From positions 4,903,001 to 4,967,000 of the forward strand of contig NC_092677.1 of NCBI RefSeq assembly GCF_964355755.1: 64,000 bases of DNA, in the 5' to 3' direction. The position numbers and the translations under genes are program-made. Under the pieces are notes generated by a model, which saw only the letters and a list, made by a program, of their open reading frames with translations, was not told where the DNA came from and did not search any database. Shown piece after piece: positions 26,501 to 53,918 of this stretch. Source of the DNA: Antedon mediterranea (Eukaryota; Echinodermata; Crinoidea; Comatulida; Antedonidae). Every line of letters starts with the position of its first letter. Within the stretch, counting starts at the first letter, position 1.

Positions 26501-27046
26501 ATAGTGTGCCCTCTGTTGCCAAAAACTGTTTGTGTTTTACTGCACAGCAATTTTTTATTTATTAAGACAAAACCATAATAAATCTTCATAAAGTAACTAC
26601 CATTTGTACTTAAATACAATTGTAAATATTCAAAAAAATTTAAAAACTTCAAAATCAAATAAATCTGTTTCAAATGTATTTTTCTTAAAATTTCCATTCA
26701 AAATTTGAAGTAGTAAGAAAGGTAAGGCAGTCCAAAAATATGCCACACCCACCTCCATTTTTGGTTCCAAAGCACTTTTTTAAATTGTTTAGCATTTTCG
26801 TTTAAGCAATAATTTTGATTCAAAGTTTTGTCTCTACTTCCAAAATCACTGAGATAGGTTACATTTTTATGTTGTGAAACAAAATATCGTTTGATCAATT
26901 GTAGGCTCAAATATTAAATTGAAAAACATTTTTTTGATATGTTATTGGAATTATTAAATCATTTTTTACAGATATTTCACCAGGTTCAAGACAGTTGTAC
27001 ATCATCCTAATTGTTTTAATTATTTTATGGTTACTGCTTCTTTGTT
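23528..27046 (+). CDS. Three-Ig membrane receptor (gene 3)
   Basis: Exons: 23528-23567 (signal, MYFLVILLNFITKG), 23998-24324 (V-like Ig), 24645-24932 (I-set-like Ig), 25956-26180 (C2-like Ig) and 26972-27046 (membrane helix). All are open, flanked by GT-AG, and join in phase 1. Ig1 has 'VLITCDYSQF' and 'TFQCEI'. Ig2 has 'FTCSKSGEPTPYITWYKDG' and 'DGGNYTCKAESD'. Ig3 has 'ATCTADGRPKPSSVVIL' and 'NITCNAEN'. The membrane exon encodes LYIILIVLIILWLLLLC. Ig1-Ig3 correspond one-to-one to the domains of gene 2 and to Ig1/Ig3/Ig4 of gene 1. The membrane exon ends in phase 1 and needs a further exon. The nearest phase-compatible candidates are 29241-29501 and 29721-29751, but which exons supply the tail is unproven. 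Confidence 0.7.
25231..25511. mobile_element. MITE, TTAAAGATGTATTGTC family
   Basis: Ends TTAAAGATTTATTGTCTCCC (left) and GGGACAGTACATCTTTAA (right) are inverted repeats. At least two further full members occur, at 41812-42367 and 54859-55223, plus a fragment near 23177-23295. It contains a long T-run. TTAA at both termini suggests a TTAA target site, but this was not verified. Confidence 0.65.
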
Positions 27047-27385
27047 GTAAGTAAAACCTCTAATCTCTTAATCATTTTATTCTCAATTAGCATGCATGGA
27101 CATAGAATTATCCTAAATAGTATTCACAAATTCCTCACCCCAACTTAACTCTGTCGACATAAGCGCTCTGCGCAGCTGACCACAAGTGACAGACCCACAG
27201 CGCAACATGTAAAGAATAACTATTGAAATAGGCGAGTTTTTAGGACAGATTTGAATTTAAAAGGAAATGGAGTGAGCAAGTTGGTTCCAGAACTCTGGTG
27301 CCTAAGCAAAGAAGCCCTTAGGCACGGATTTTAGCTTAGATCTAGGTGGTTTTAACATATCCGTTTAATGGTAATAATAATGGTT

Positions 27386-28890
27386 TCAAATTCAAATTCA
27401 AATATTCTTTATTCATCCTCTATCATGAAAATATACAACAACAATATATGAGAACATAAAAAAGATGAAAAGGAAACACATAAAAACTCAAAAGAGCTTG
27501 ATTAGTTGTGTCCCCCTATGTCCCTAACTAGCCTAAAAAACTAAAACATAAATAATAAAAAAGCTAAACCCTGGTTTAATTAGTTTGTGAAGATAATGTG
27601 GAACAGTTTCATCTTTAAGTTTGTTTTATTTATACCACTGTCGCAGCTGAAGCTGAATTACTGTGTATTTACATTAAAATGTGTTCGTTTGTTTGTTTTA
27701 TTGGTTTCTCCACACATTTTAAAATAAAAGATAAAAATTACAAATTGCAAAAAGAAAATTACAATAAACAAGAAAAACATCAAAAATGTGCGGATGGACG
27801 TCAAAATAAGTTGCGAACAACTTTAAGTCGTGACCACCAGTTAAAAAAAAAAAATGAAGGTATACAATAGCAGTCCGGCTTACATAAAAAATACAGAAGC
27901 TTAAATTGCAAAGACAATAGTACAATTACAAGATGAACAATATGATAAGGTATTCAATTCAATAAAGTGAAGAAGAAAGGAAACAAGAACAACAAGAACA
28001 GGAGATTTAGCTGCCATATGCTGCGACCAAAGACTTTTTTAGGTTAGATTTGAACAAAGGTAGATTAGGAAGAGATTTTAATGAAATACTTAATAAATTC
28101 CATAGTTTTGGACCATTATAAAAAATCGATTTTCTTCTTAAATGAAATGTATCGTTTTCAGATAAAATATTTGTTTTAGCAAATCTTGTGAATATCAGGT
28201 TGTTGTTTAGGAAATAATATGATTTGGTAAAGAGTGATTTTTTAGACGATACATAAAAATATAAGTTTGTAATTTGTGTAAATCAAATACATTAAGTATA
28301 TTAAATTTATTAAATAAGTTTTTGGTGTGAGCTATTCTGGTTGACCCTGCACAAATCCTGATAGCACGTTTTTGTAGTTTGAAGATGTTGTCAATATTGG
28401 TTGCTTCAGGACTCGTCCAGGGACACAAGTAAAGAAATTTATCAATTGTGGTAGCCCAAGATATGTTACAATAATTAATATACAGTAGGGTAAAACTAAG
28501 GTGTTATATAAAGGTAAAAGAATGTGCTGTAGGAGATAGTGCTTTAGTTTATTCATTATTCCAATGTTTCTAGAAATTATATTTGAAATATTATTACGAT
28601 GGGACTGCCAGGATAACTTTGAGTCTAGGATAACACCGAGAAATTTTGTTTCATTAACTTGTTTAATTGATTACACTATCATTAATTTTAATAACATCAG
28701 AGTCTATATTTTTTATTTTATAATTAAAAAAAATATAGTTAGTTTTATTAATATTCAAAGATAATTTATTTAAATTGAGCCAATTGGAAATCTTAACTAA
28801 TTCATTATTTGTAGTTTGCACAAGTTCAGTAATATTTTTGTGTGAAAAGAAAATGTTAGTGTCATCAGCAAAAAGAACAAAATTGTGTAA
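27386..28890 (-). mobile_element. 5'-truncated LINE with RT FADD motif
   Basis: On the minus strand the fragment starts with 'FVLFADDTNIFF' (catalytic FADD box of reverse transcriptase), then 'ISNWLNLNKLSLN', 'FLGVILD', 'LQKRAIRICAGSTR', 'FNKFNILNVFDLHKLQ', 'FYNGPKLWNLL' and 'VAAYGS' before a TAA near 28007. A 3' UTR runs to AATAAAGAATATTTGAATTTGAA, a polyadenylation-like signal with a TTTGAA tail, near 27390-27420. Several frame breaks make it inactive. It lies between the gene 3 membrane exon and the next exon candidates. Confidence 0.8.
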
Positions 28891-29240
28891 AAAGATTTAA
28901 AAACAGTAAAAATTCAAGAAACAATTGTTATAAGCGCTCACACACTGGTTCCGTTCAGTTGCTCGAAAGTTGACATAAGCGCTCTCCTGCAACTGGTTTG
29001 TTTCAGTTCGACCTAAGCTTGCATAATTTTAGAATCGTAGTGCTTAGTTTCGTTAATTATTCTTTTGGAATTTTTCTGAATTCAAGGGGAAAATATGTGT
29101 TGACTTATGATTACGCAAATTATGTAATGACGTCTAATTTTTTTTATTATGTAAGTGAGTAAGGCTTAAATAAGAGTAGAAAAAAATATAAAAAAGGCAT
29201 TTAAAATAATATTAAATATATTTACAATTCTTTTATTTAG

Positions 29241-29501
29241 ATTTTATGCATTGTAAGAATATTGAGTGGAGTAATACAGATGTTGATATAGTGACAGTTG
29301 AAGGTGGTAAACCAGTTGAGATGAGTTGGAAATATCGTCCAAGTATTGCATGGTTCAAGAATTTTGGAATAAAGAAAGAAGACAAAATGCTTGGTTCAAA
29401 TAAAAAGCAATTCAGTAGTTGGAAAACAGTCTGCCAGTTTGTCTGTTATTGTTGTGCTTACTTTTGTGGATTCTTTTGTATTGAATACTGTAACAAATCA
29501 T
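29241..29501 (+). CDS. Exon with Ig-like piece and Cys-rich membrane segment
   Basis: A 261-bp phase 1-1 open exon between TTTAG and GTAAGT. The first part ('VTVEGGKPVEMSWKYR', 'IAWFKNFGIKKEDKM') looks like half of an Ig domain. It runs straight into a hydrophobic, cysteine-rich stretch, VCQFVCYCCAYFCGFFC, likely a membrane helix. Adjacent 29721-29751 (phase 1-2, NKDDKKRES) would be the first cytosolic residues. It may be an alternative membrane exon for gene 3 or part of another receptor whose upstream exons are lost. No close match in the other loci. Confidence 0.5.
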
Positions 29502-29720
29502 GTAAGTTAAATTTGTGTTCATTTTATCAATACACCATTGTTTTTCTTTTCAGTTCCTTATGATAAATCATACTATTTCAAAGGGTCGAGATATAGACAG
29601 TGATGACCATTAAATTCTGGAAAGAACTTTGCACAAATTATTTTTCATGGGAAAACCTAAACTTTATACTGTAGTATTGTATTACATTACACAAGATATG
29701 TTTAATACATTTTTTTTTAG

Positions 29721-29751
29721 ATAACAAAGATGATAAAAAACGAGAAAGCAG
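29721..29751 (+). CDS. 31-nt juxtamembrane micro-exon
   Basis: Bounded by TTTTTTTTAG and GTGAGT. Encodes YNKDDKKRES plus two bases; positively charged, as expected just inside a membrane. It links phase 1 (29241 exon) to phase 2, the entry phase of exon 33949. Confidence 0.5.
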
Positions 29752-30864
29752 GTGAGTTACTTCTATTAGAATTTGTATTGAACACATGGCACAAGGTCTT
29801 TCTTGTAGTTTGATATTATTAGGTTATATGCATTATTATGCATATAACCTCTTGATTCTGTCAAAATCTTTATTTGCTTATTTATTCTTTCCTTAGCACT
29901 ATTTTGTCCGTCAATTATCTTGATATCAGTTTCATCTATCTAAGTCAATTTTTCGGAGTATAATTCCTTATGGTCAGGAATCGATGTGGTTATGTTTTCA
30001 AGGTGCGCAATCAAAAATTACGCGGTCTACGCGCGATTTAACGAAATCACGTTTGTAATCATATCTTCACAAGCATGAATTACAATTAAACAAAATTTGG
30101 TACTCATAAATTTCAGGTCATATTTCATCATATGGCAATACAATTACGTGCGTAGCGCATATAACGCATGCGTACGCGCGCTTAAAATTTTCAAAATTGT
30201 CAAAATTTATTTTTGATGAAATTAGAGTACGTTTCAGGCAATTTTAAGCGTTTAAAAAATTGCCATGAGTGCGCAAATTTTTTTTTAAACGTTAATGCGC
30301 ATTATTTTTGTCCAATTTCTGTTGTACAATCTTTCTTTAATAATATCATCATATTTTATTCACTTTTCAACGCGAAATTGCGTTATACGAGCACTTCAAA
30401 AGTGACAGGCTACGCACGTGTAAGTTAACAAAATGGTGAAAATATGCTAAATTTTTAAATTAATATAGATCGTCAGAATGCTCGGGAACACCTATTTTTT
30501 ATTTCAGTTTCTTGAAGTGTATGTATCATATGTATGATTTATTATGAAATTAATAGAACAAAAGTTTATTAAGTCATCATTAATTGCATTTTAAATTTTT
30601 TTAAATTAATTTCGACAATCAAACAAATTATGACATTTTCTTAGGCCAAAATAACAAATTAACATTAACTTTCTCCCTTAAAAAGTTCATTATATTAAAG
30701 TTAAAAGTATATAGTTTGACAGTGCATATTTTTTTTTATTTTTTCAAAATGTCATCATAGTAAAAAATTATAATTCATTGCGGTATTTAATAATCTATCT
30801 GCACCAAAGTGGTTACTGTATTGTAAATACACGGAGGAATCTTTCTACAACCTTTAGTCAGTTG

Positions 30865-30935
30865 TGTATGGCTTGGTGGTCTGTGCTCGTGTCTATGGCA
30901 TTCAAGGTACCGAGATCGAGTCTCACCTTGGGAAA
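30865..30935 (+). repeat. tRNA-like SINE fragment
   Basis: Reads TATGGCTTGGTGGTCTGTGC with a B-box-like GAGATCGAGTCTC about 35 nt later. No anticodon arm or acceptor stem is convincing, so it is called a tRNA-derived repeat inside the Helentron-like element. Confidence 0.4.
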
Positions 30936-31166
30936 CGAAACGAAATAAGATTTTTTTTATTATCTGTATTGTTTGCTCAATGTTATTTCTTAGTGTATAG
31001 ATTATACACATGATTTATAATGAAATTATATATATTATATTTAATGTAACTTATGTCTTTATTATGTAACAAATGTGGTTTATGACATTATACGCAGAGG
31101 GATCTTTGATCGGATTTTGTATTGTGTTTGCATTAGCAAGATTCTGCTGTCATATATTATAAATAA

Positions 31167-32603
31167 CTAGATGGTACGCTCGCTTCGCTCGCGTACCATC
31201 TAGGTCGTGCCCACAGATGGTTCTCGAATACACAGTAATTTCAGCGTAACAAAACTTTCGATTTCAAATGTACGTACCGCAGGACAAATAAATAGACAAT
31301 GTGATTTATGTACTCAACTAAAAATAGCACCCTGGGAATTACTTCCGAAAGAGAAACTTGTCACAAAATGAGACCAATTGTTTAAGTCAAATTTAAACAA
31401 ACTTAATTTGTGTTTTGTATGTAACATTAGGGTTGAGGGATGGGGAAGAGGATGGGTGGAAAGAAAGAGGAACAATTTTTAAATATATTCTTTATCTATT
31501 TAGTAACGAAATATTAATTGTTTTCATGTTTTACAAATAATATACCACTAAACACAGTAAAACATTGCGATGTAATACTTTGTTGAAACTATAACCGTCC
31601 AAGTCGATTGAAATAGTACAGTAGCCTACATGTAACGATGTAACATCACTACGACGTGTATATGTTTATATAATGTAAAACAATTTGTGAAAACCACCTC
31701 TATTTGGGGAAAATCATAAATTCGATTTGATCGTCAATAAATATTAAATTATCTAACTCAACTTAATAAGTAGGCCTAATGGTTTTCAATTGTTTCTTAG
31801 AGCCAATTCATACTTAAGTTGGTTCCTACCCTACCCACCAAAGTTGTTCTGCGTTTAGGGCATGTGATGTACCGTAGGCCTATCCTCTACTGGTTTTACA
31901 ACGCTACTCATGCCAGTGAGGGAAGGGTGATGATGTGGGTGGTTTAATTGCAATAATAAATATTTGTACATAATATACGGCGAGTGAAAACTCTAGCTCA
32001 TTATCCGTTTAAAAAAATGTATATCCAACCACTGCAGCACAGATTGGAAAAAAAATGGATCGAATTTCTGCAGGTTATGAGATATACAGTACTTGCCTTT
32101 ACGACGCCTGAGGGAATAGACGCTTGTGGAACAGAGATTGGAATGTTCCATTCATCGCAAATCAATACATTTGTATAAACGTATATTAAATCTATCAAAA
32201 TAGTATTTTTTTTAAGAAAATCGGCCTGTCTTCAACATTATGATGCTGTACTCGAGCTGTTCAACCGGTTTTCAGCCATTAAAAACAATTATCGTATGAG
32301 GAGATAGGAAAATGCGAAGCATCCTCGTATTATTGTCTGCGGGTATTTTTCAAGACGGACATCCATTAGACAGTGTATACCACGATCGAAAAACACCCCT
32401 ATTTGGGGCAAATCGTTGAACCTAAATTCGTTTTAATCGTCAATAACTAATTATCGAACTCAATTTAATTAGTAAACAGGGTTACATCAGGTGGTTAAAA
32501 TCAGTACCGAAAGTACGAACCAACTTTATATACCATCGAGTAAACATTCTAGAAATAACGCGCGATTTACCGAATTTTGCCCTTACGTAAATTTATATAT
32601 AGA
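31167..32603 (-). mobile_element. Non-autonomous Helitron, copy 1
   Basis: On the minus strand it begins TCTATATATAAATTTACG and ends with hairpin GGTACGCGAGCG / CGAGCGTACC followed by AT-CTAG. The host bases are A before TC and T after CTAG, the canonical Helitron A^T insertion. It is 1,437 bp. Copy 2 (51722-53210) shares both termini exactly and most of the interior. It carries no Rep/helicase ORF, so it depends on an autonomous partner. Confidence 0.85.
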
Positions 32604-32741
32604 TGAAAGATTCTGAGAAAATCAATCAGTCAATATGTCTTTTAAAAATCAATTATCTTTATTTAAATCAATGCATATAACCTATAATTCGTCATAGTGA
32701 CGAATTAAATCTAGTTATCTTGTATTGTGTTAACCCTACAG

Positions 32742-32796
32742 CAATGGTAATAGAATTAGTGGTGAAGAGTATCATGATGGGTGTATGGTATCTTAA
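32742..32796 (+). pseudogene. Truncated duplicate of the tail exon
   Basis: The acceptor region and exon start (TTGTGTTAACCCTACAG, then GGTAATAGAATTAGTGG) duplicate 33926-33965, but the frame ends in TAA after 18 codons ('GEEYHDGCMVS'). It lies directly downstream of the Helentron-like element. It could be an alternative terminal exon giving a short tail; a decayed duplicate is simpler. Confidence 0.55.
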
Positions 32797-32799
32797 TGA

Positions 32800-33940
32800 T
32801 GCAGAGATCCCTGTTGTAGTTTACCATTAGGGATTTTTTTGAGATTTTCATGTCAACTGATAACTTATGATGTCATTTTTATGATATACTACCGCCAAAT
32901 TTGAGAACTTGTTCAGTGTCATTTGCCGTTCGCTCTCTGACATGAGTATGTAGTATGACTTCATAAGACTGCAAAAGTTTACCAAAATCATGGCGGAGAA
33001 TGATCCCGAGATGATTTTCTGAGAATACAGTAAAGGGCATTTCAGTTAAATTGTATTTACAAAGTGTGAATTATTGAATTTATTGGTTATTTTTAAATAG
33101 TTTAATACTACAGGTTAGGGCCTGAGTTTTGTCACTAGGACGCTAGCCTTTGTTCAGAAAAGTAAGGATCTAGGCTAGGCCTAAGCTACAGCCTACAGAA
33201 GGAGATCCAGGAATTTTAAATAGGAAGGGTCCTTTGAGCCACAGCGAGCCCCTTCCCACCTCCTCCCTCCATAGTTGGTAAATAACACCCCCAGATGGTT
33301 GGAAATGGTACTCTCCAACAAAAAATTATGATAAATGGCACCTCTAGTTGGCCCGAAAATAACACTCCCATGTGTCGCACAACAATCAGCAAAACGATCA
33401 GAATTTTTCCGCCGTATTTTAGATGCGCGTGTTTGATCGTGCTTCACACAGAGCCGGGTGTTTTGTTTTGGTTTGCGTTACCGTACAGGCTACATGCACT
33501 CGGACTGTCAACCAATTGAACAGAGTATTCAGTCGATAATACACAGCTGTGAGGCTTCCCCCTCTTCCACTTCTCGAGTCCGCCCCTTAATCAGCCCAAT
33601 GAGACCATGTGCATGTGCTTTGGTTGTACACGCCCGATCGCGACATTTATTTTTGTACATAAGTTGGGGACCCCTCATGAAACATCACAAAATAAACATG
33701 AATATTCATTGGTCATATCCGTAAGGTGTGACGTACAAAAACAAAAATCGTTGCCTTAGCTCCAAAAGCTCTTCTAGAGATTACAAGGTCAGATCCCAAG
33801 ATCATTACATCATACATTTACTAACACGTCGACGTAAATGTCGACTCAATCTAAACGTTCATATCTGTCAATGACACATAGTGAACATTTGGTCATATCT
33901 AAAAGTTCCTATTGAGTATTATTATCTTGTATTGTGTTAA
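32800..33940. other. Spacer with interspersed repeat
   Basis: No coding exon recognised. Positions 33640-33735 (ACATAAGTTGGGGACCCCTC) are an inverted counterpart of 21768-21862. The ORFs at 33193-33724 run through this repeat on both strands and show no domain. Confidence 0.45.
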
Positions 33941-33948
33941 CCATACAG

Positions 33949-34224
33949 CAGTGGTAATAGAAGTGGTGAAGAGTATCAGATGATGGTCAATGAAAGAGAA
34001 TGTCCTGATGTGCCAACAGTCTCTGGTATCTCTGGACCACCAGCAGGAGTCTCTGGTATCTCTGGACCACCAGCAGGAGTCTCTGGTACCTCTGGACCAC
34101 CAGCAGGAATCTCTGGTACCTCTGGACCACCAGCAGGAGTCTTTGGTACCTCTGGACCACCAGCAGCAGTCTCTGGTATCTCTGGACAACCAGCAGCAGT
34201 ATCTGAATCTGAACAAAAGTTAGA
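33949..34224 (+). CDS. Tail exon with Ser-Gly-Pro-Pro-Ala repeats
   Basis: Opens with 'SGNRSGEEYQMMVNERE', where YQMM is a YxxM site. It continues with six tandem 10-residue units of the form VSGISGPPAG (about 34018-34200), a coding 30-bp minisatellite, and ends 'SEQKLE'. If spliced at the weak donor GAG|GTTGGT (34224) it would join exon 34755 in phase 0. If not, translation stops at TAA 34232-34234. The repeat makes a flexible, proline-rich spacer; whether it is cytosolic or extracellular depends on topology. The minus-strand ORF across it is a shadow of the repeat. Confidence 0.6.
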
Positions 34225-34754
34225 GGTTGGTTAATAAATAGGGAGGTTGCGCAATGCTACAAATACGATAAATAAAACGTATTTGTTTTCGTTAGCCAGT
34301 AACAATCAGTTTCGCATAGCAATGAAATATTGAGGGTGCCGTCCAAAAAATATGCCTGTGGTAAATTTGAACGAAGTGCAGGTACGTGTTGCTTGGCCAT
34401 CTAGGCCAAGCATAACAACAGAGCAAGTAAGGAATTTTCAATTGACGTGACATTTTTCGTAAAAAACTTTCAATAAATTATCTATGATTATATTACAATC
34501 ATGAATCATTATTGTCTCAAATCAAAATGTGAAAAATAGATCAAAAACTATACTTGTTTTGTAGTTACGATTATGGTGATATTCGTCAATATGCTTTACG
34601 AATATGAAATGGGCATCAGCTCAAAAGTTTTAAAAATGTGTGAAATTATCGTATTCGTTCAAACAATTAAACAGACAAACAAACAAATTAAATAGAGTTT
34701 GTGAGAGTATATTTGAAAGCATTATATTCCTAACATTCTTCTACTTATTCACAG

Positions 34755-35875: not shown

Positions 35876-36570
35876 AAGGCTTCAATATACATATAATGGT
35901 TCTTCTGTTGTAACTTTGGTCTTCAAAAACCCTACTTTCACTTTTACAGTTTTACTTCCTTTTCTTATAAAATTGGGCTTGTTCGTACTTTGATTGACAG
36001 AGTTTACAAATTGAATAATTCCTGGTCTAGCTTTAACAATGACATTTCAACTTTTAAAACCATTTTAAGTAAAAACTGTTTTCCACAACATTTACAGATA
36101 TCTTAATAATGTTTTCTCTCCCTGCAATGTTGCGTCAGTTGAGTCGATTATTGAACAAAACAAGGTTCTTTATTTTAAATTACCTTACTTACAGTTTGCC
36201 AAATGCGCACAACAAAGAATCGATAAAATTACACGTAAATATTGCAAAGGTATTAATATTAAATTAGCTTTCAAATCATTTAACATTTCAAACTTGTTTA
36301 GTCTTAAGGACCCGGTCCCCGATATGTTCCGCTCTCGTGTTTATATAAATTTAAATGTATGGGATGTAATTCTATGTATATTGGTGAAACCAATAGACGG
36401 TTGTCAATGCGGGTGCGTGAACATTTCAGGGACAAGGCTTCTCACATTTTTCAACATCTGCAGATTCCGCTTTCAAACTTAAGGTCAAGGAAGCCCTCCA
36501 CATCACGTGGAGTAAACCTTCCCTGAACAAACAAATCTATAACTTAGGCGTCACACTTACCATATAATTG
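35876..36570 (+). mobile_element. Penelope-like element 3' fragment with GIY-YIG domain
   Basis: Shifting frames show 'FGLQKPYFHFYSF' and 'SYKIGLVRTLIDRVYKL' (RT C-terminal region typical of Penelope), then 'LKDPVPDMFRSRV', 'CNSMYIGETNRRLSMRVREH' (GIY-YIG endonuclease core) and a C-terminal 'NKQIYNLGVTLTI' before TAA. It is frameshifted and 5'-truncated, therefore inactive. The sequence to about 36740 is probably its 3' UTR. Confidence 0.8.
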
Positions 36571-37114
36571 TTTGTTGCTTACATTCCTTGTTGTTTTATT
36601 ATGCTAATTACTTGCTTATTTACATACAATATGTCCTATTCGTATATAAGCACTCTAGGCGTTGTTTACGGTTCTGATGATGAGAATAGTTTCTCGAAAC
36701 ATGTCACATTTTAAGGCAGTTTGCCTTTTCATTGAATGCCTCGCTATAGTAATTTTAACTTGTAAGTTTGGTGGTATTATTCATGATTTATCTAACATAT
36801 AATATAATTTTTAATGGTAAACTAAAGTTAACACAGTGTGTACCAGCTTTTATCTTAAATTTTAGGTTATGCTTTGTGAAGAGTGGTCTGCTTCATTACA
36901 CTTTGCAATATTTAAACTTAAGTGGATTTTATTCTGCAGTGTGAATTTTTTGTCCTCACTTTATTTACCAGTGTTACCGCTGTAACATTGTACGTTATCT
37001 GAAAATATTGCAGTGTAAAAGTGCATAATAAAAAATCATGGAATTTGACCATACTGTATGTTTTAAACATAAATTAAATTAATCCGTTCCCTGATTATTT
37101 TTTTTTTTATATAG

Positions 37115-37134
37115 ATCTCAAAGTTCATACACAA
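37115..37134 (+). CDS. 20-nt micro-exon conserved in both loci
   Basis: ATCTCAAAGTTCATACACAA between ATATAG and GTAAGT. Its counterpart at 529-548 differs at few positions and has the same splice signals, so it is under constraint or was recently duplicated. Phase 2 to 1; joins 35310-35325 to 37958-38083. Confidence 0.55.
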
Positions 37135-37957: not shown

Positions 37958-39679
37958 CAAATGGTAGAGGAAGCATCAGCCTAACACTTTTAAATCCTGC
38001 AAGATCTGATTCAGGGAAGTACAGCTGTAGTATAGAGGGCAGTAGACAGCAGTGTCCAGGTGTTAAGAATTTATTTGTTAATTGTGAGTTTTATTTCTGG
38101 AAATGAACTTCATAAAAATACAAAAAAGAACCATTTGATAATCTTATAAACTTATACAACATAATGAAAAAAGTCAAGGTTTAATAATTGTCCTGTTTTG
38201 AGTAACACAACATAATAAACACAATTAATATATTTTGTATGTATATTAAGTATACATTATTAATGCTTTTAACAAAAATGTTCATGAATTTTAAAAGAAA
38301 AATTACAATTGTATTGGCTCAAATTTATACGACACAGCTGGTGACTAACTGCAGAGTAATCGCTGCCCATGATTACTTTGAAACTAAAATAAATTTTTCT
38401 ACGAATATTAAGATACTGAGATGGTAGATCACAAGTATTCAACAGAAGAAGATATCAGTAATTTTAAAATGAAGTGCAGATATGGACCAGCAGATATGCC
38501 ATTAACAGGTTACAAGTGGAAGAAGATTAAGGAAGATGGCACAACAGAGATTGAGGATTGTTATAAAGATTCTAGATTTGAAGTAACAAGTTACCAAAAT
38601 AGCATTCTGTCTTTGAAGATAAAGAATGTTGTACTTGATGATGCTGGCAAGTATCAATGTGAAGTGAAGCCAGTTGATGGAGAAAAGAAGCTGGAAGATA
38701 CTACACAGCTAATAGTGAAGAAAGGTAATTGTAATCTGTATTTTACTTGCCAACAAAATTGCAAATACTTTATTTTATAAAGAAATTAATGAAAAATGTT
38801 TTGTTTCTTCATTTTGTTTTATAGACCTTGTTATAATGAATATTCCTGCTGTTACTACTAATGAAGGTAGGAATTCTGATCAATTGTTGCTTAACCTTAT
38901 GTGGGTTGGTGATGCTGCTGCAATATCCAATACATGTTGGTATAAGAAAGTTGAAGGTGGAGAGAAGGAACTGCTGACATCGTTGTAATAATATGTAATC
39001 TAATGTTGAAAGTTAAAAACATTTGTTTTCTTAAAACTGTAAATCCTAAATTAATTATGAAGTGACCTAAAATAAACAAAGACGGACTTTTGAATTTAGA
39101 TCCGTCTTCTATAGTAGTTTTGATCTTCGGCCTAAAATTTAAAAAAAGGAAAAAAAGCAATAAAAATAATGTTAAAAACAATAGTTTTAGCAACTACAGG
39201 GATCTTTAAGAAAACTGGTTTGTGGACTAATTTTGTTTTCATTTTGTCATACAATTTGATTAGACAATATTTTTGAGTGTATAATGAACTAATTTCATCC
39301 AATATATCATACTCACAGGTATCACAATGAATGATAATCTTGTTACACTTGGAGAAAAGGGTATTTTAACTTGCAAGTATAAAATTAAGGATAAAGTAGA
39401 AGTTGTCAATTGGTGTAAGAAGAAAGAAAACAAGTTGATATTTACTTCTGATGAATCTCAACAAAAGAAGATAGAAAAAGTGCCTAAAAGATGTAAAGCA
39501 ACTTATAAGTCTAATGAAACAAGCTTAGAGTTTGAGAAAGTGGAATTCACTGATGCTGGAGAGTATATATGTGAACTTAAGCCGAAGAAACACAATATTA
39601 ACTTTATTCCAGACAGAATTAGAAGAAAATTATCATTTTCTTCACCCCATACAAAATCAGCACACTTACGTGTACAGTG
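37958..39679 (+). CDS. Ig exons of locus B
   Basis: 37958-38083: second half of an Ig with 'DSGKYSCSIEG'. A possible first half ('TQMICTHHDPDN', 37311-37400) lies upstream, but its phase does not fit and it runs into TAA. 38413-38724: complete Ig ('KMKCRYGPAD', 'YKWKKIK', 'DAGKYQCEV'). 38825-38988: first half of an Ig ('CWYKKVEGGEK'), then TAA at 38986-38988. 39320-39679: complete Ig ('ILTCKYKIKD', 'VNWCKKKE', 'DAGEYICEL') with extra cysteines and a long basic loop before the G strand. Confidence 0.7.
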
Positions 39680-42600
39680 TAAGTAGATTGGTGGAGATTT
39701 CTATAGGTCTCTATGAAAATAAAATAAATATATTGCCTGCATTAAAAATATTGCCAAATTTTTAAATAAGTAAAATAACATATGACCAATTACTCAACTT
39801 CCTGATGCTACTCCACTTCATGGTATGTAATTCATAACAAATTATGACACTTATGACTGCATATTCAATAATATTTTAATAAATATTTTGGTTTTATAGT
39901 TAATGTGTTTACTGCAGCTGATTATGAACACGATAACACATACAGGTAAATGCATGGTTCTTTAAGTTGAATGTTAAAGTGTTGCTAACCAATTGGTTTT
40001 GAACAATACCATGAAAGCCCTAGTGGTCTAATAGTTAGGTCATCTGCTTTGTCATCAAGCAGAATTATTTTAATAAAAACCGTAATATATATTGGTTTTT
40101 TTTTAAATAATTTGTCAGAGTACTTTGATTTTTTTTTATTTCATTTGCTTTATTCAATATCGGCTCATTACAATTACAACAGAAAACATAAAAATATATA
40201 ATGAAATAAAAAGCCAGGATTGTCAAAAGCGAACCCAATCACTGTTTAAAGATTTTCCTTTAACAGAAATACAATATAATAAATAATAATATAGGCTAAA
40301 TGACGGTTAAAAAAAAAATATATTTAAAAAGCAAAATAAAGAAAAAAAATGGTTAAATTAAAATCTAAGACTCAAATCAAAAGGAAGAGAGGCAATGAGA
40401 GGAGAAATCAGGAATGGAAATAGGCGAAGACTAGTCACAAAATCTCGAAACCTGCTAAGGAGAGCAAGGTCTCTTAAATCAGAGGGAAGACCATTCCAAA
40501 GTTTACAGAATCTAGGAAAGAGTGAAGATTGACAGTTCGAGCAAAGGGTGGCCTAATTTATCAGGGGGCGAGTGCACTTATATTATACTTACTCATCCCA
40601 TGCACATTAGTATATAACCACATATTTAAAAAACAGGTTACTGCAGTATACTGTTAATTTGTATCCATTTTGTTCTCTTATTTTATAGACGTCCTGCAGT
40701 AGTTTTTATAAATTCTCATGTTCTTGTCTTTGTTGAGAAAAATAACTCAGATGTAATATTGAGAAGGGGAAAGATGAACATAAAGAGTTTGATTGAATGG
40801 GAAGAATCAAGAGTTATTTTACACGAAGAAGATAAAAGGTATTACATTTGAGTATGACAGTTATCTTGTCTTTAAAAAGTTGGGGTGTTTTTTTAACAGC
40901 AAGGGTGGGTTTGGGGAACACACCATGGATTTTAATTAATAATTAAATAAATTAAATACTTTGTGAACAATCTTAGGCTAATTAGCCATCTGGAAATTCA
41001 GGCTTTCAGAGCAATGATTTACAAACATATGTACTATAAAAATATTTCTGATTTTTTTATTCATTCTATGTAAGAAACACTAATAGAAACACTTTTTTTT
41101 TTGGCTATCCACAATCCATATGTGTGTGCTATGTATGTAATGAAAATGATGTGAATGAAGTTTGGAATTGGAATTTGAAGGTTTCCAATATTTTTAAGTA
41201 GAAACAAAAAATTGAAAACATGAAAATGATTAAAATATGCCAAGTGTGTGTTTGTTTTTACTTATACTATTTACCATACAGCTTTCAGAATCTAGTACCA
41301 ATTGTAACACACAACGGAAAGGTGATTCTAATGTGTGTTAAACAAAATAAAAACACAAAAGACTGGAATACAATAAAGATAGAAACTGATGATTATGGAA
41401 ACAATTGGAAAGAACCATTTGATGTAAAATTTCCATCAAAAATCGAAGAAATTACATCCCTCCTATGTGAGTATAGGCATGACCTATTCATGGCTTGTAT
41501 AAAATGTGATAGTTTTGGGAGTTGCCATGGCTAAACTGGCTATGCTGTGCATAATATCTGAGCTGTGCATATGAATGTCACTGAATTTCAAATATTAAAA
41601 TGTTCTTTTCTGCCATTAATGTGCTGGTAAAATGTTTTTGATAGTTGTAAATATTATCTATTGAATGTCTACAGTAATTGTACTTTCCTACTTTAAATTA
41701 CAATCAAATACTGACTAACCTGATAATCTATAAAGAAGAATAATGCAATTAAAACTAATAATTTGAAAATATCACTTATTCTTTTTCTCCAAAATAATAT
41801 TTTGTTATAGTTTAAAGATGTATTGTCCCTTGAAACACAAAAAAAAAAAAAAAAAAATATTCTACATTTAAATTAGCCATATCAAAGTAATATTAAAGTT
41901 ATTCACTTTAAGTCGAAAATTTGAGCCAAAAACAACAAGTTTACGTAATTAACAGGTAAATTAATTAGATTACATTTCGTCTGGGAAATCGTCGCAAGCG
42001 AAAGTAAACAAAGATTTCAAACCATGAGTATGCATTATGCATGATGCTAATTAGGATTGTTTACAACTCGTCACGGTTGAAAAGGTGTTTTTACACAGAT
42101 CGCGAAGAAGTTTTATGATTATGCATACAGAGTAGCCAAACAAGCGCGTTGCATTATGAGATATGTTTTGATTGAAAACTTTGACTGGAAGTCAAAGTTA
42201 TTTTTTGAACAAAAAAACATCTGTATTTCGGTTAAATTTTTTTTTTTTCGACTAATTTTTGGTGAAAGTTAATAACTATTATGATACTTCAAAATGACCC
42301 CCTTTTTTTGAAAATTAAAAAAAAATAAATTTTTTTTTAATTAGTCAAAGGGCATCTGATCTCTTTAAAAAATACCAAAATTAAATAAAAGTACTACAAA
42401 CTATAAAAGTAAATTTTTATCTTTTTGTTTTAACATATATTATACACATACATTTTTTTTAGGCATTGATGGTGTTTGCTTAGAGTCAGGGAATCTGGTT
42501 CTTGCAGGAGTTTGCAATATCGACAATAATGGCAGTAAAGAAAGTAATTATTTAGAAAATTTGAATATTATTATTTATACTTGTATTGTATTAGCTTTTT

Positions 42601-44468
42601 ATAACAGACCCTGGCATTACACATGACATTCACTTATTTTAACACACATATTTTCTATAAATACTTTTTATAGAAATAAAAATAGGCTATTGAATTAGAA
42701 TCTATTTCTTTATAGAATTATCCTGACCCTGGTTTAAAGTCCCATTCCCTACATTTTTTTTATCTCATTTAAGGTCACTAAGTACATTTAATGTAAAAGT
42801 AAATACTATATGGTCCTATTGAGATAACTTTTTTCGTCTTTAAACGTTTAAAAATGTGAAAAATAAGTGGATTCTAATAATTTTAGCGTCCCGCTATAAA
42901 TCCCAACATGCATTGTGTACAGATTGATATTTTCGTTTTTCTTCTGTAATTCACCCACTTTTCGATCGATCGTGAGGCCAAAACAATGGAAGACTTTTTC
43001 AGTGAAAGTACCGGTTTTCCCCAATTTATATCAACGGATTCTGGCAAAAACAGAAAGACAATCAATGCAGCAACTATACAACGTCAGGCTAGGCCTATAG
43101 CTAGCATACGATGTTCGTACATTACCGATGTTTACCAGCTAGGCCTACAAAACTAAGCCTAGCTAGGCTAGGCCTAAAGACCGTCCACGAGAGGACATTT
43201 ACCGTGAGCTACATTTAAGACAAGGATTGACCTGGTTTAATGTTTTTAAAGTTATATATATGCATTATTTTTACAAAACGTCACAAATTGTAGGGAATGG
43301 GTCTTTAAATAATAAGTTGTGTTTTTCATTTCAAAACACTCACACTCAATGTAATATCACAAAAAATTGTATACACTGGGACATTTGTCAGAAAAGTACA
43401 CATGATTCAGAAAATATTTTGTTGGCCCAGCATTAATACTTTTATATGAAAATACATATGCGGTAATTTTGCATCTGTCATGAGCTATTAACAGTCATAA
43501 GAAATATAAATTATTTGTGTTGTTTTTGTAGGAAGCCTACTTGTAATAATAAGTACGGATGATGGTGACAACTGTAACATTGAACATGTTATTAAACTAC
43601 AAGTTACATCAGGAATACATACACAAGTAAGAATACGAGTGAATTCTCTTTTCATACAATAAAATGTTTTTAATTAACACACTCGTATAATGATTTTTAT
43701 TACCTGTAGGTTGTTGAATATGGTCAAGATCAAGTTTACATCATCTGTACATTGGAAGATGATAGTACGCATCTTTTTATTATAAACAGCAAGGATGGAT
43801 GTAAAACAGTTGATGTTGTGAATGAGAAAGAAGAGACAAATCTCGAATGCCAGGTATGCGATGTTATTTTGTATCTCTAGTGGCTACTGTCATTTCTTTG
43901 TCATATTCTATAAAGCACTACTACTTTATGCATTACACTCGTACACATTGTATGTGTTACCTCCGCCAGAAAGACGAGAGGTTATGTTGCCTAGGCCTAG
44001 ATCGAGATTTGCGCTTTCTGTGTGCACTTTTAGTAATTTATATTTAAATAGTATATAAATTAATAGTCTTATTTTTACTCGCATTTATCAACACACAATG
44101 ATTATTTAAACTATATTTGCCTTATTTATGGTACATAAATTACGTTGTCATTTAAAATCTCTTAGAGTGGTATTATACCAACAAAGACAGATGAGTTCTA
44201 CCAAATAGCAATGGCAAGTCATGGAAATGAAACAAATAAGGATCTTACACTTTACTTAAGTGAAGATGGTTGTAAAACCTGGTCTAAGTTTAACACACTA
44301 GGTGCAGTGAATGCAGAAGAATCTGACCTAGCTTACTACAGTGTAAAAGAAGGGGAAGAAGAAGCAGAAGGAATAGTGTGTGTTTACAGTTATGGTTCAG
44401 AAACAGAGGGGTATAATATTGGAATGCAGTTGATTTCTAAGAAAGAAATTAAGCAAACAGAAATATAA
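37958..44468 (+). CDS. Ig-sialidase fusion protein, copy B (likely pseudoenzyme)
   Basis: Exons: 37958-38083 (Ig half), 38413-38724 (Ig), 38825-38988 (Ig, truncated by TAA), 39320-39679 (Ig), then seven sialidase-fold exons 39900-39945, 40689-40838, 41282-41466, 42463-42543, 43532-43626, 43710-43853 and 44166-44468 (stop). All joins are phase-compatible if the broken exon 38825 is skipped, since its neighbours are both phase 1. The C-terminal module follows the blade order of animal cytosolic-type sialidases (NEU2/3/4), with 'YRRPAVVFI' at the FRIP position, 'VILRRGK', 'TDDYGNNW', 'STDDGDNC', 'QVVEY', 'ESDLAYY' and 'GIVCVY'. Most catalytic residues are replaced, so glycan binding without cleavage is the best guess. 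No signal peptide was found nearby; the 5' end may lie in upstream exons (23528 or 33949 onward). Confidence 0.7.
39900..44468 (+). CDS. Sialidase-fold module of locus B
   Basis: Seven exons, about 330 residues, roughly the length of a NEU2-type propeller. Against NEU2 the first arginine (TYRRP for Y-R-I-P) and the Glu of the 'CQVAE' motif (here QVVEY) are kept. Residues replaced or absent are the Arg/Asp of the next loop, the Glu near residue 111, the paired tyrosines of the VPAY motif (here VLAGV), the second and third arginines of the carboxylate-binding triad, and the nucleophilic tyrosine (ESDL for YSDL). Asp-box turns are kept at three or four positions, so the fold is probably preserved while activity is lost. 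Alignment was by eye. Confidence 0.7.
40010..40075 (+). repeat. tRNA-like half (SINE head)
   Basis: GCCCTAGTGGTCTAATAGTT resembles the 5' half of a tRNA (A box), followed by a CATCTGCTTT..AAGCAG stem. No B box is seen, so this is a SINE or tRNA fragment, not a gene. Confidence 0.4.
40130..40560 (-). mobile_element. CR1-like LINE 3' fragment
   Basis: The minus strand reads 'CSNCQSSLFPRFCKLWNGLP' followed by 'LRDLALLSRFRDF', the terminal RT motif of CR1/jockey-type LINEs, with a short A/T-rich tail. Inserted in the intron between the first two sialidase exons of locus B, next to the tRNA-like half. Confidence 0.65.
41812..42367. mobile_element. MITE, TTAAAGATGTATTGTC family
   Basis: Left end TTAAAGATGTATTGTCCC; right end GGGCATCTGATCTCTTTAA. 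Internal words such as 'acttcaaaatgacccc' are shared with the fragment at 23205-23240. Lies in a sialidase intron of locus B. Confidence 0.65.
42733..43309. mobile_element. 577-bp MITE with 21-bp TIRs
   Basis: TTTAAAGTCCCATTCCCTAC at the left and its reverse complement (one mismatch) at 43289-43309. Part of its interior (about 42770-43270) is also present in the equivalent intron of locus A (about 10180-10525: 'actatatgg', 'tcccgctataaat', 'gtccacg.gaggacatt'). There the terminal repeats are lost, so the insertion predates the duplication of the two loci. Confidence 0.75.
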
Positions 44469-44739
44469 AAATTCTGAGAAGAGAATGTTGGGTGGGGGTG
44501 GAGATCATATTTTTTCTTTTTTGTGTTGTATTAACCACATAACATCAATGACAAATTTCAGTTGTTGAGAATATACATGTGACAAAAACTGCTTGACTTA
44601 TAACACAGATAATTAAAATAATATTGTTTATAGAGAAGCAAGTAGTTTAGACTCTTCAGTAAAATCTAGAATGTTGATTTTAATGTGTACTATAATACTA
44701 TTTTTAATCCAGTGACTTGCTTAATAATGTACTTGTCTA

Positions 44740-45130
44740 TGTTATGGTTCAGTGATTTTGTTTGATTTTTTGATAATGGAATAGCCCATGGGGAATGGGA
44801 ACCCTGCTGGACACCCAAGCCTAGAGAGCGGTATCCAAGGAGACATCTTTCTCTTTGGCCTGGGTGACTGGCAGGGAGAGGTGTGTTCTACTTGCTATAA
44901 AGCAAATAATAAGTCAAGTCAAGTCAAGTATCATAAATGCTAAAATGTATAAGTAAATTAAACTGCTATAAACTGAGCCTGTTTTGCTTGCCTGTTTTGC
45001 TTGCCTGTTTATATTCCAATAAATGTTTGTTGTGAGATCAAATCAAGACGATTTACCTGGTACAGTATCATTATTGTTGCACGTGTCAACCGCAATCCCA
45101 CACAAGTTAGGGAGGCTGGAGCCTTTTACA
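44740..45130 (+). repeat. 5' LTR
   Basis: Begins TGTTATGGTTCAGTG and ends GGAGCCTTTTACA. Contains AATAAATG about 150 nt before its 3' end, a plausible polyadenylation signal. Three AAGTC units, against two in the 3' LTR. Confidence 0.9.
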
Positions 45131-45888: not shown

Positions 45889-46730
45889 GTGTTGACTTAC
45901 TTTATGAACTTGTATTTTACGTATGCACACCTTCTATTGTTTTGTGCTACTTTTCTGTAATTGTTAAACCATTTTAAGCTAAATAATCTATGATGATAAA
46001 GTGTTTAGTGTTCATCAATCTTTACTGCATAAGAGTTATTGTTATAATTATGTTACTATTGTTTACCTAATTGTTAATAGGTATTTAAGTTTATGAGTAC
46101 AGCATGTTATGGTGTCATAATATGGTATTTTGAAAATAATTAGGTACACACAGGTTCTTGTATCATGTAACATGAGATGTATTTATAGATGATTGAAAAG
46201 TTGATAATAATGGTTTAAAGTACCACAATCTCTGGAGCTTGTATTATATAATGTACTGATCTGTCACAGGGTAATGATTATAGGGTAACCTGTGAGTTGT
46301 AGTTATAGTTTTTGGGGTATGAAGCCGTATGGTGGCACCTATTGGATTGGTCATGCTCCTTGAGCTGTTAGTTGTGTTGGAAAGCAGTCTTATGGGTGAA
46401 CCTTTAGCAGTGGTCATGAGGTGCGATCAGAACTTTACTGATCGGGTGAGTGTCATGGTAACAAGGGCCATGATGGGTGGACTCGCATTGGAAATTCCTC
46501 ATACTTCTGCTATTGAGAGGGACCGTACTGGCTCCGTATTTAGTATCTTCACTTTAACAGTTGGCATGACATGATGGTTAGGAGTCCATTGCAGAATGTC
46601 TTAACGGGGAGTGGCATCCCAATGCTATTTCAACCAACAATCGGGTATCTAATAATCAGTATACTTTTATATTGCGACAGTGTGTCAGATTACAATACTT
46701 GGGGGCCAAGTATAGTCATCACGGGGAACA

Positions 46731-47116
46731 TGTTATGGTTCAGTGATTTTGTTTGATTTTTTGATAATGGAATAGCCCATGGGGAATGGGAACCCTGCTG
46801 GACACCCAAGCCTAGAGAGCGGTATCCAAGGAGACATCTTTCTCTTTGGCCTGGGTGACTGGCAGGGAGAGGTGTGTTCTACTTGCTATAAAGCAAATAA
46901 TAAGTCAAGTCAAGTATCATAAATGCTAAAATGTATAAGTAAATTAAACTGCTATAAACTGAGCCTGTTTTGCTTGCCTGTTTTGCTTGCCTGTTTATAT
47001 TCCAATAAATGTTTGTTGTGAGATCAAATCAAGACGATTTACCTGGTACAGTATCATTATTGTTGCACGTGTCAACCGCAATCCCACACAAGTTAGGGAG
47101 GCTGGAGCCTTTTACA
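46731..47116 (+). repeat. 3' LTR
   Basis: Same ends as the 5' LTR, with one fewer AAGTC unit. Preceded by a weak purine tract (ACGGGGAACA). Confidence 0.9.
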
Positions 47117-50401: not shown

Positions 50402-53400
50402 CTGTAGAAAAGATTTAACCGTTTGTTCGGTTGTGAAATCATTGAAAATATTATCTTCAATACTGGGCTAAAAATGGTGAATGATTAAGTGGAAATGTAT
50501 AATTCAAACACTAAACTATTACTTGGTAAATACAGTATGGTGACTTACCTTTCAAATTGTCTGTAGGCCCATCTGTAGGCCTACCTGCTTTGGGCCTACA
50601 GTTCTCAAGTGATGTAGAGGCATTAAGTTTTTCATTCTCTGCATAACATGTAAGATTTGATTGACATATCTCATCAGTAATTTCTATAATTGCTGTACAT
50701 TCTCCTTTCTTAACCATTTCTCCATCTTGTAATATCAATACTGATGATGGCTTGGGATGGCCCTCTGCTGTACATGTTGCAAAACAATCTTCAGGTTTGA
50801 ATGTTGCGATAATATCTATTGAGAGAAGATAAGGCTTAAAGCTTAAGAAGATTTAGAAATATTGTTTTGAATCGATATGGGCCTAACAGCAAGACAAATT
50901 ACGCTTGTTATTACAGATTCAGTTCATCACACGTTTATTTAGTTATGAATGTAACTGGGTCCCAAGCAGAAAAAATAATAAGGATTTTCAAAATTTTAAT
51001 ATTTAGAATATAGATACAGAAATTTTATTTTTAGAAGAAAACAAAACAGTGGAACATTTTCTAATTTTTGTATTGCCTCATATATTTAATAGTAGGCTAT
51101 ATATATATATAATTTTCTACATACAAAATATTTCCAACTGTTTTCCGGCACTGGTTTTAGCATCAACTCCCTTAAACTGATCACTCTCGGCTTTACATGT
51201 ATATATACCACTGTCTTCCATAGTGGCTGCTTCAATATTAAGGACATTTCCTTTGGTATTTATCTTCTTTCCATCTTTATACCAAGTAATGTAAGGAATA
51301 GGATCACCATTAGGTTTACTACAGGTAAATGTGACTATTTCACCTCCATAGGCAGTGCTTGCTGAGGCATTAAGACGTGGTTGATCCATGTCTGAGAAAA
51401 ACAATACAAAAAACAACGAAAATAATGGTATAAAAATAAAACAATTTACAAATGGAAGAATGAAAGACATTTATAGAGTAGACCTAGTATTAATGAGGCA
51501 TTAAGACGTGGCTGATCCAAGTCTGAGAAAAAGTATAAAACAAATTAGACAGCAGACAAATAAACATGTAGTCAACACAAATTACAACAAAAAGAAGTGT
51601 ATATAGTATTATGCCTATTGATACTCAAGAAAATGTAACTCTAATTCCGGAGTTATACTATTGGCGTGACGTGGGAACATTTAAAATTATAGGCCTACTA
51701 TTTAGTAAACAATTATAAGGACTAGATGGTACGGTACGCTCGCTTCGCTCGCGTACCATCTAGGTAATGCCCACAGATGGTTCTCGAATACATAATAATT
51801 TCAGCGTTAAAAAACTGGCGATTTCACTGATGTACGTACCGCAGGACAATAATACATGTCGTTTACAGGAAAGAATAAATAGACACTGATTTATGTACTG
51901 AACTAAAATTAGCACCCTGGGAATTATTTCCGAAAGAGAAACTTGTCACAAAATGAGACCAATTGTTTAAGTCAAATTTAAACAAACTTAATTTGTGTTT
52001 TGTATGTAACATTATAGGGTTGAGGGGTGGGAAAGAGGATGGGTGCAAAGAGGAACAATTTTTAAATATATTCTTTATCCATGTAGTAACGAAATATTAA
52101 TTGTTTTCATGTTTTACAAATAATATACCACTAAACACAGTAAAACATTGCGATGTAATACTTTGTTGAAACTATCACCGTCCTAGTCGATTGAAATAGT
52201 ACAGTACATGTAACGATACATCACTACCACGTGTATATGTTTAGGCCTATATAATGTAGAACAATTTGTGAAAACCACTTCTATTAGGGGCAAACCATAA
52301 ATTCGATTTAATCGTCAATAAATATTAAATTATTGAACTCAACTTAATTAGTAGGTCTAATGGTTTTCAATTGTTTCTTAGAGCCAATTCATACTTAAGT
52401 TGGTTCCTACCCTACCCACCAAAGTTGTTCTGCGTTTAGGGCATGTGATGCACCGTAGGCCTATCCTCTACTGGCTTTACAACGCTACTCATGCCAGTGA
52501 GGGAAGGGTGATGATGTGGGTGGTTTAACTGCAATAATAAAGATGTGTACATAATATACGGCGACTGAAAACGCTAGCTCATTATCCGTTAAAAAAAATA
52601 CCAACCATGGAACTATAATATAAGATATATATATATATATATATTATAGTTCCATGATCCAACCTCTGCAGCACAGATTGAAAAAAAAATGAATCGAATT
52701 TCTGTTATGAGTATACAGTACTTGCCTTTACGACGCCTGAGGGAATAGACACTTGTGGAATAGAGATTGGAATGTTCCATTCATTTCAAATCAATACATT
52801 TGTATAAACGTATATTAAATCTATCAAAATAGTAGTTTTTCAACATTATGATGCTGTACTCGAGCTGTTCGACCGGTTTTCAGCCATTAAAAACAATTAT
52901 CGTAGGAGGAGATAGGAAAATGCGGAGCATCCTCGTATTATTGTCTGCGGGTATTTTTCAAGATGGACATGCATTAGACAGTGTATACACGATCGGAAAA
53001 CACCCCTATTTGGGGCAAATCGTTGAACCTAAATTCGTTTTAATCGTCAATAACTAATTATCGAACTCAATTTAATTAGTAAACAGGGTTACATCAGGTT
53101 GTTAAAATCAGTACCGAAAGTACGAACCAACTTTATATACCATCGAGTAAACATTCTAGAAATTACGCGCGATTTACCGAATTTTGCCCTTACGTAAATT
53201 TATATATAGATGTCGGTTTATGATGGGTTTTTTTTTCAGGCTACAGTACATCATGATTATCTGTTATACTCACAATATACAGTTAGCATAGATGGACTTA
53301 ATAATTTAATCAATCCATCTGCGATTTGTATCTGGCATCTAAATCTTCTCTGAGAATCGTTTCTTAAAGGATGTAAGATCACCAGGCTAGCTTCACCAGG

Positions 53401-53918
53401 AGCAGTGTGTAACCGGAAACGTGCATTTTCCATCTTTTTATCATTCACAATTCCTGGGTTGATCGTTACTTCATCTTCATTTAGTTCATCCCATTGTAGT
53501 GAAGTAGGAGTAGAAGTAAATTGTGAATAATCACAAGTTATCACCACTTCAGCGTCGCCTTCTTTAGCTGTCTGGTTAAAGGTCGTTTGACCATGTGCTT
53601 AAAATATTAAAAATATCCTATTGTTTACATTTAACCATTTTACTGTTGATAATTCAATATTTAACTGCCGCAAACTAAAAAAAAATATTTTCTATACTAT
53701 ACATACAAACAAGTAAAAAGAATAAAACTGCTTTCAACCTACTGTTTTTAGTTTTACGCGTTTGTAATCTGGTTATATAAAACTATTTCAATATTAACTG
53801 GCTGACTAAAAATTGTATTTGTCGTTTAGTTGTTGATTATCATATTTAGTTATATTTTAATTATCTTACCGAATAAAGATTGTAGATATACAATAAATAA
53901 AATTCGCTTCAACCCCAT
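49446..53918 (-). CDS. Three-Ig type I receptor with tandem tyrosine-motif tail (gene 2)
   Basis: Exons on the minus strand: 53870-53918 (signal, MGLKRILFIVYLQSLFG), 53274-53597 (V-like Ig), 51125-51391 (I-set-like Ig), 50549-50815 (C2-like Ig and stalk), 50307-50401 (membrane helix), 50086-50205 and 49446-49595 (tail), ending in TAA. All are open and all phases match; about 420 residues. The membrane stretch includes VGLLTVAIIIAFILGSVL. The tail has SKYQNL (fits the S-x-Y-x-x-L form of an ITIM), then YSKI twelve residues after YQNL. The pair YxxL-x12-YxxI fits a relaxed ITAM. Later come VIYEEP and HYSKQL. It is paralogous to gene 1 but has one V-like domain fewer and a shorter tail, and is likewise convergent with its Ig-sialidase neighbour. 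A Helitron fills most of the first large intron. Confidence 0.75.
50549..53597 (-). CDS. Ig exons of gene 2
   Basis: Ig1 53274-53597: 'VVITCDYSQF', 'LQWDELNED', 'FRCQIQ'. Ig2 51125-51391: 'VTFTCSKPNGDPIPYITWYK', 'DSGIYTCKAESD'. Ig3 50549-50815: 'FATCTAEGHPKPSSVLIL', 'ICQSNLTCYAEN', followed by a polar stalk 'GRPTDGPTDN'. All phase 1-1. Confidence 0.75.
51495..51525 (-). pseudogene. Duplicate scrap of an Ig2 exon start
   Basis: About 35 bases (AGGCATTAAGACGTGGCTG, then CTGAGAAAAA) repeat the acceptor and first codons of the Ig2 exon at 51366-51400. The rest of the exon is missing. A failed or eroded exon duplication 130 bp upstream of the working exon. Confidence 0.65.
51722..53210 (-). mobile_element. 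Non-autonomous Helitron, copy 2
   Basis: Same termini as 31167-32603: TCTATATATAAATTTACG start (minus strand), hairpin and CTAG end, A and T host bases. It is 1,489 bp, with a few indels and an inserted 51-bp palindrome at 52606-52656. It lies in the Ig1-Ig2 intron of gene 2, ending 63 bp from exon 53274-53597. Confidence 0.85.
52606..52656. repeat. Small palindromic insertion inside Helitron copy 2
   Basis: CATGGAACTATAATAT and its reverse complement flank an (AT)n core. Copy 1 has no such sequence at the equivalent place, so it arrived after the copies separated. Confidence 0.8.

Follow-up and report, generated by a model that had tools for sequence, protein, structure and literature searches.

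Can the fold of an animal sialidase be attached to immunoglobulin (Ig) domains and put to a use other than catalysis? The question is raised by a locus in a 64,000-nucleotide stretch of the genome of the crinoid Antedon mediterranea (assembly GCF_964355755.1, contig NC_092677.1, positions 4,903,001 to 4,967,000 of the forward strand), which we refer to as the window and whose internal numbering is used throughout. Between positions 37958 and 44468 of its plus strand lie 10 exons that encode approximately 2.5 Ig domains followed by a propeller of the sialidase type, from which most of the catalytic residues are missing. Our preferred explanation, to which we give roughly even chances, is that this is an Ig-pseudosialidase gene, the product of which would be an extracellular recognition protein with tandem Ig domains and a C-terminal, six-bladed, non-enzymatic propeller.

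Exon structure and domain identity

The seven sialidase exons (N1 to N7, Table 1) and the Ig exons that precede them (Ig1 to Ig3) had been placed correctly in an initial annotation of this DNA. Namely, an exon-boundary check finds AG acceptors, GT donors and matching phases at all 9 junctions, and the spliced frame, while lacking a defined start, runs for 599 codons with no internal stop. The 3' ends of Ig1, Ig2 and Ig3 are all in phase 1, and the junction between Ig3 and N1 is hence in phase 1 as well. What is more, upstream of N1 there is no in-frame ATG before a stop, either here or in the second copy described below. With N1 unable to supply a start codon in either copy, the sialidase exons depend on an exon further 5'.

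The Pfam search that the annotation had proposed for the propeller returns BNR_2 (PF13088) with 60.8 bits against a cut-off of 31.4, covering residues 34-285 of 333 and profile positions 15-261 of 277; human NEU2, as a control, scores 151.2 bits. A match to Sortilin-Vps10 is weaker and falls under its own cut-off, and in NCBIfam, searched up to E 0.1, the propeller matches no family. The Ig part matches V-set, I-set and other Ig families in Pfam. The claimed affinity to NEU-type enzymes is also borne out by local alignment, in a comparison confined to NEU2 and NEU1. Against human NEU2 the propeller scores 63, a value reached by none of 500 shuffled sequences (mean 31.9, standard deviation 4.6). 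The score of 40 against NEU1 (shuffle mean 33.3) is matched by 51 of 500 shuffles, and descent from NEU1 was rejected on this comparison; a descent of NEU2 type rather than NEU1 type is favoured. As for the Asp-box turns, which had been described as surviving, four positions are indeed present and in order, but the terminal Trp is found in only two of them (41385-41408 and 44259-44282). Chance open frames, as an explanation for these exons, are rejected on the basis of the BNR_2 and Ig matches and of the occurrence of two copies.

A second copy with the same order of exons

A tblastn search of the window with the product reveals a second locus at 785-12493, which is decayed and in which six of the seven propeller exons are present; N2 was not found there. 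Because both copies share the order of their exons, the Ig and propeller parts were duplicated together. The annotated fusion as a single gene thus stands, with an identical order in two tandem copies, and this shared order is the best evidence here that the Ig and propeller exons form one gene. When joined, the open pieces of the second copy match BNR_2 with 32.1 bits, barely over the cut-off. In a blastn comparison of the two regions, 11 of the 14 blocks coincide at least in part with an exon, with the Ig relic or with the microexon listed in Table 1. The other three are intronic, and the idea that introns are conserved between the copies was rejected, since these blocks lie in non-equivalent introns and look like a dispersed repeat. 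A profile built from the two copies and run against bacterial and archaeal genomes and viral contigs gave 25 and 437 pattern matches, none of which was confirmed as a relative.

Loss of the catalytic residues

The catalytic residues of NEU2 are R21, R237, R304, Y334, E218 and D46, and a survey that compared 87 sequences (from 21 organisms, according to a section heading) reports full conservation of all six across its five subgroups (PMC3431349). In our alignment with NEU2, a single one of the six is kept, namely R21, within TYRRP at residue 15 of the propeller. The position of D46 is a gap within a deleted loop, R304 has become Asn, and Y334 has become Glu in the motif EESDL (44316-44330, in N7), which occupies the position of AYSDL in NEU2. 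E218 and R237 are replaced as well, although the exact substitutes vary with the alignment. In the case of the arginines one can go further. Namely, the propeller contains arginines only at residues 15, 16, 40, 41, 56 and 154, and because there is none beyond residue 154, equivalents of R237 and R304 are impossible under any alignment. The Y179/Y181 pair is also lost, its expected site being in N4. That said, two tyrosines lie 5 and 6 residues beyond the Glu that replaces Y334, and an Asp lies within the shortened loop; shifted substitutes for Y334 and D46 are formally conceivable.

Most of the catalytic set is thus gone, as had been noticed in the initial annotation: five of six residues are missing, including the Tyr/Glu nucleophile pair and two of the three arginines that bind the carboxylate of sialic acid, and because these and the Y179/Y181 pair are absent, it is unlikely that the pocket still functions in its ancestral form. 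Classical binding of sialic acid by the propeller appears doubtful. In the decayed copy E218, R237, R304 and Y334 are replaced too, by the same alignment, and the residues of blade 1 are unreadable because of the missing N2. The loss of Y334 and R304 in both copies may represent one event, with exon N7 looking homogenised between them; N5 and N6, which carry the positions of E218 and R237, are well diverged.

A functional gene or a young pseudogene?

How would such a gene have come about, and what would it do? In our proposal, the propeller would derive from an animal sialidase of NEU2 type (NEU2/3/4/5), would have been fused with Ig exons in phase 1, and would then have been duplicated together with them, with one copy decaying later. 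With its pocket remodelled, the propeller would offer a surface to which a glycan or a protein ligand binds, while the Ig domains could act as a stalk, promote oligomerisation or provide a second site of binding, in the manner of the snail VIgL proteins. The Ig-type cysteines, two of them extra in Ig3, together with five N-glycosylation sequons, suggest that the protein is extracellular, and we infer a receptor, either membrane-bound or secreted.

It should be noted, however, that a number of observations weigh against this proposal. A mechanical scan yielded no initial exon that carries a certain start codon. Moreover, one copy is a pseudogene, and in the open copy one Ig exon is broken and mobile elements lie near both sides. 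The highest mean hydropathy over 19 residues is 1.60, the usual borderline for a membrane span, and it falls within the propeller, where we take it to reflect a buried strand. In a phmmer search of PDB sequences with the propeller, the top match is a sialidase-family protein at E 0.18 only, and the nine PDB sequences that the two-copy profile matches at E 0.0005-0.005, each of them a sialidase or a sialidase fusion, span only part of the propeller. Single exons, when submitted to fold prediction, gave models of low confidence that were not good enough for a comparison with solved structures, with a mean predicted local distance difference test score (pLDDT) of 33.9 for N7 and its counterpart and of 45.2 for Ig3 and three other Ig exons. 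Finally, over 382 codons compared between the copies (Ig3 and N2 excluded, N7 cut at the frame break), the rate of nonsynonymous change (dN) is 0.228 and that of synonymous change (dS) 0.242, and a dN/dS of 0.94 does not show strong purifying selection.

Taken exon by exon, dN/dS extends from 0.48 (Ig1) up to 2.63 (N1, 14 codons), and the amino-acid identity between the copies is 89% for N7, 77% for Ig2, 70% for Ig1 and 32-50% for N1 and N3-N6. This distribution suggests gene conversion of Ig2 (1058-1369 and 38413-38724) and of N7 (12207-12499 and 44166-44468).

Could the open copy, then, be a young pseudogene as well? Under this view, an Ig-pseudosialidase gene that once functioned would have been deprived of its leader, of half of Ig1 and of one Ig exon, and would by now be drifting. 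This is the most serious of the alternatives, even if we consider it unlikely. The absence of a sure start exon, the half-length Ig1, the Ig relic with stops at 38825-38987, the dN/dS near 1, the clearly dead other copy and a pair of repeats resembling long terminal repeats (LTR), which are 98.7% identical and begin approximately 270 bases past the stop of the gene, all speak in its favor. On the other hand, half of Ig1 is present in both copies, and its truncation is therefore old, while the 599 codons of the gene are open, with AG/GT at each internal boundary. In simulations of neutral drift (substitutions only, no indels), the coding sequence acquired a mean of 5.9, 9.2 and 13.3 stops at 0.05, 0.08 and 0.12 changes per site, respectively, and the share of 2000 runs that remained free of stops was 0.25%, 0% and 0%. 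Judging from one live and one dead copy, the intact copy has probably been retained as a gene, with its amino-acid sequence free to change.

The 5' end and the remaining alternatives

Where does the gene begin? The candidate leader exon listed in Table 1 has a phase that fits a direct join to Ig1 at 37958, as found by mechanical scan, and it sits approximately 180 bases 3' of a mobile-element remnant. The possible 20-nucleotide microexon, the region of which is 83% identical between the copies (blastn block 509-555), does not match in phase behind this leader-like exon. The remnant itself (36069-36526, plus strand) has a weak GIY-YIG match of 18.0 bits, below the cut-off of 22.6, and we take it to be possibly Penelope-like.

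A small-exon chain from the tail of the upstream receptor-type gene is, by reading, also phase-compatible with Ig1. In particular, exons at 34755 (ending in phase 1), 35310 (16 nucleotides) and 37115 (20 nucleotides) run in phase into Ig1, and the Ig-sialidase exons could accordingly be the 3' part of that gene (23.5-34.9 kb), forming a long membrane protein, or be spliced from it alternatively. Phase fits across three small exons are weak evidence, however, and the upstream open frame stops at 34232. What is more, exon 34755 bears, by eye, a likeness to the acidic tail exons found in the receptor-type gene on the minus strand, and as a tail exon it would place disulfide-type Ig domains in the cytosol. 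For these reasons, we regard an origin of the exons in the upstream gene as quite improbable.

Catalytically dead relatives of enzymes often still bind, and R21 of the carboxylate triad is retained together with its YRxP context, so one may ask if the propeller is a lectin for sialylated glycans, with a Siglec-like role achieved through another fold. With equivalents of R237 and R304 impossible and with E218, Y334, Y179 and Y181 replaced, this strikes us as a distinctly remote prospect. Least credible of all is that an Ig gene and a sialidase-like gene are separate and merely adjacent: Ig exons are frequent in the window and the spacing of Ig3 and N1 differs between the copies (approximately 220 and 910 bases), but the order from Ig3 to N1 and the phase-1 splice sites are retained in both, and N1 begins at the sialidase N-terminus in both.

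Comparison with known systems

With the NEU2/3/4/5 sialidases (GH33; human NEU2, PDB 1snt) the product shares the BNR_2 match over the propeller, the YRxPA and LRRG...W motifs of blade 1, the Asp-box positions in order and an SDL motif near the end. Unlike them, it is missing five of the six catalytic residues, has Ig domains attached and is probably extracellular. Its seven propeller exons also differ from the exon counts given in the survey, namely two for NEU2 and NEU3, three for NEU4, six for NEU1 and a mixed number for NEU5 (PMC3431349). By profile, then, the product is related to NEU-type sialidases, and by its residues it would fail as an enzyme.

The snail VIgL proteins FREP, CREP and GREP are plasma lectins that combine Ig domains with a fibrinogen, C-type lectin or galectin domain (PMC5433772). 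Here, too, there are Ig domains at the N-terminus, a single additional module of recognition type and more than one gene copy. The C-terminal module, however, is a dead sialidase propeller, and no Pfam match up to E 1 to the fibrinogen, C-type lectin or galectin families was obtained in the spliced product. Because this module differs, the protein is not a member of the VIgL family, and any likeness in secretion and ligand binding is putative. By analogy with FREP, CREP and GREP, we take it that the propeller would act as a recognition face.

Siglecs join Ig domains to the theme of sialic acid recognition; unlike in Siglecs, the sialidase-derived part here is a propeller, and the known exons contain no signalling tail. 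Bacterial sialidases that carry Ig-like linker domains (PDB 1eut, for example) likewise have a propeller and an Ig-like fold in one chain. In these, however, the propeller comes first and is active, while the Ig exons here match V-set and I-set families and lie on phase-1 introns.

In the portion of the open-licence literature that was available, no description of an animal protein joining Ig domains to a sialidase was found. This is a weak negative, and the novelty of the architecture is provisional. It is possible, if on balance rather unlikely, that the locus represents a class of animal recognition proteins not previously described. Its members would have a sialidase propeller free of catalysis where an Ig-lectin receptor has its lectin module, and would have been duplicated and be diverging fast (dN/dS of about 1) within a cluster of Ig receptor-type genes. 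If true, this would clearly exemplify, in an animal, the conversion of a sialidase into a binding module that lacks enzymatic activity and is linked to Ig domains, with an enzyme reused for recognition, perhaps in immunity. It would also extend the Ig-plus-lectin design of snails to a new kind of module, and would make it possible to test directly if glycans are still recognised by a sialidase pocket that lacks its arginine triad.

Table 1. Exons and related features of the two copies, all in window coordinates
Feature	Position	Strand	Remarks
Candidate leader exon	36701-36761	+	MSHFKAVCLFIECLAIVILT; signal peptide-like; ends phase 1 before gtaagt
Possible microexon	37115-37134	+	20 nucleotides; second copy likewise, with splice sites
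Ig1	37958-38083	+	Second half of an Ig domain (by reading)
Ig2	38413-38724	+	Complete Ig domain, both ends phase 1
Ig relic	38825-38987	+	Stops at its end, probably skipped; open counterpart 4142-4474
Ig3	39319-39678	+	V-set Ig domain, four cysteines
N1	39900-39945	+	First strand to Tyr of YRxP motif
N2	40689-40838	+	Blade 1: RPAVVF...ILRRG...W
N3	41282-41466	+	Asp-box TDDYGNNW at 41385-41408
N4	42463-42543	+	Site of lost Y179/Y181 pair; no Tyr
N5	43532-43626	+	Asp-box STDDGDNC at 43552-43575
N6	43710-43853	+	No Arg; Asp-box position NSKDGCKT at 43785-43808
N7	44166-44468	+	No Arg; stop TAA; Asp-box SEDGCKTW at 44259-44282
Second copy, whole	529-12499	+	Decayed, same exon order; tblastn, blastn, exon-by-exon reading
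Second copy, microexon	529-548	+	
Second copy, Ig1	784-905	+	
Second copy, Ig2	1058-1369	+	
Second copy, extra Ig	4142-4474	+	
Second copy, Ig3	8012-8362	+	Stops
Second copy, N1	9277-9325	+	
Second copy, N3	9888-10070	+	Stop
Second copy, N4	10678-10760	+	
Second copy, N5	11612-11715	+	
Second copy, N6	11832-11966	+	
Second copy, N7	12207-12499	+	Frame break

Genomic neighborhood

Three further Ig receptor-type genes in the window, at 14.2-20.6 kb (minus strand), 23.5-34.2 kb (plus) and 50.5-53.6 kb (minus), are suggested by Ig exons that lie on both strands and, as read from the sequence, by exons that are hydrophobic and by tail exons that are acidic and carry tyrosines. Three exons of the two minus-strand genes were compared with Pfam, of which two matched Ig families and the third (53257-53598) gave no match. 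In such a neighborhood, an immune or self-recognition role of the Ig-pseudosialidase is plausible.

In the first of these genes (14196-20578), two N-terminal exons are Ig-like by eye, exon 18457-18786 matches Pfam Ig_3, a hydrophobic exon lies near 15.5 kb, and the tail exons carry VLYEEI, NPQYKGL and NQYQSM, of which VLYEEI is by eye what we take to be a motif like the immunoreceptor tyrosine-based inhibitory motif. Inside this gene, on the opposite strand (15661-17140, plus), the DNA resembles, by eye, the 3'-terminal part of a non-LTR reverse transcriptase. The second gene (23528-34234), of receptor type by reading, has a leader-like exon, MYFLVILLNFITK (23528-23567). One of its exons, near 27.0 kb, is hydrophobic, and a tail exon contains six repeats of the SGxSGPPAGV type. 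In the third (50511-53598), an exon within 51117-51467 matches Ig families. Finally, direct repeats at 44739-45130 and 46730-47116, 98.7% identical across 392 aligned bases, flank a retroelement-like open frame that has no Pfam match; together they probably represent a recent insertion of LTR type immediately 3' to the Ig-pseudosialidase gene.

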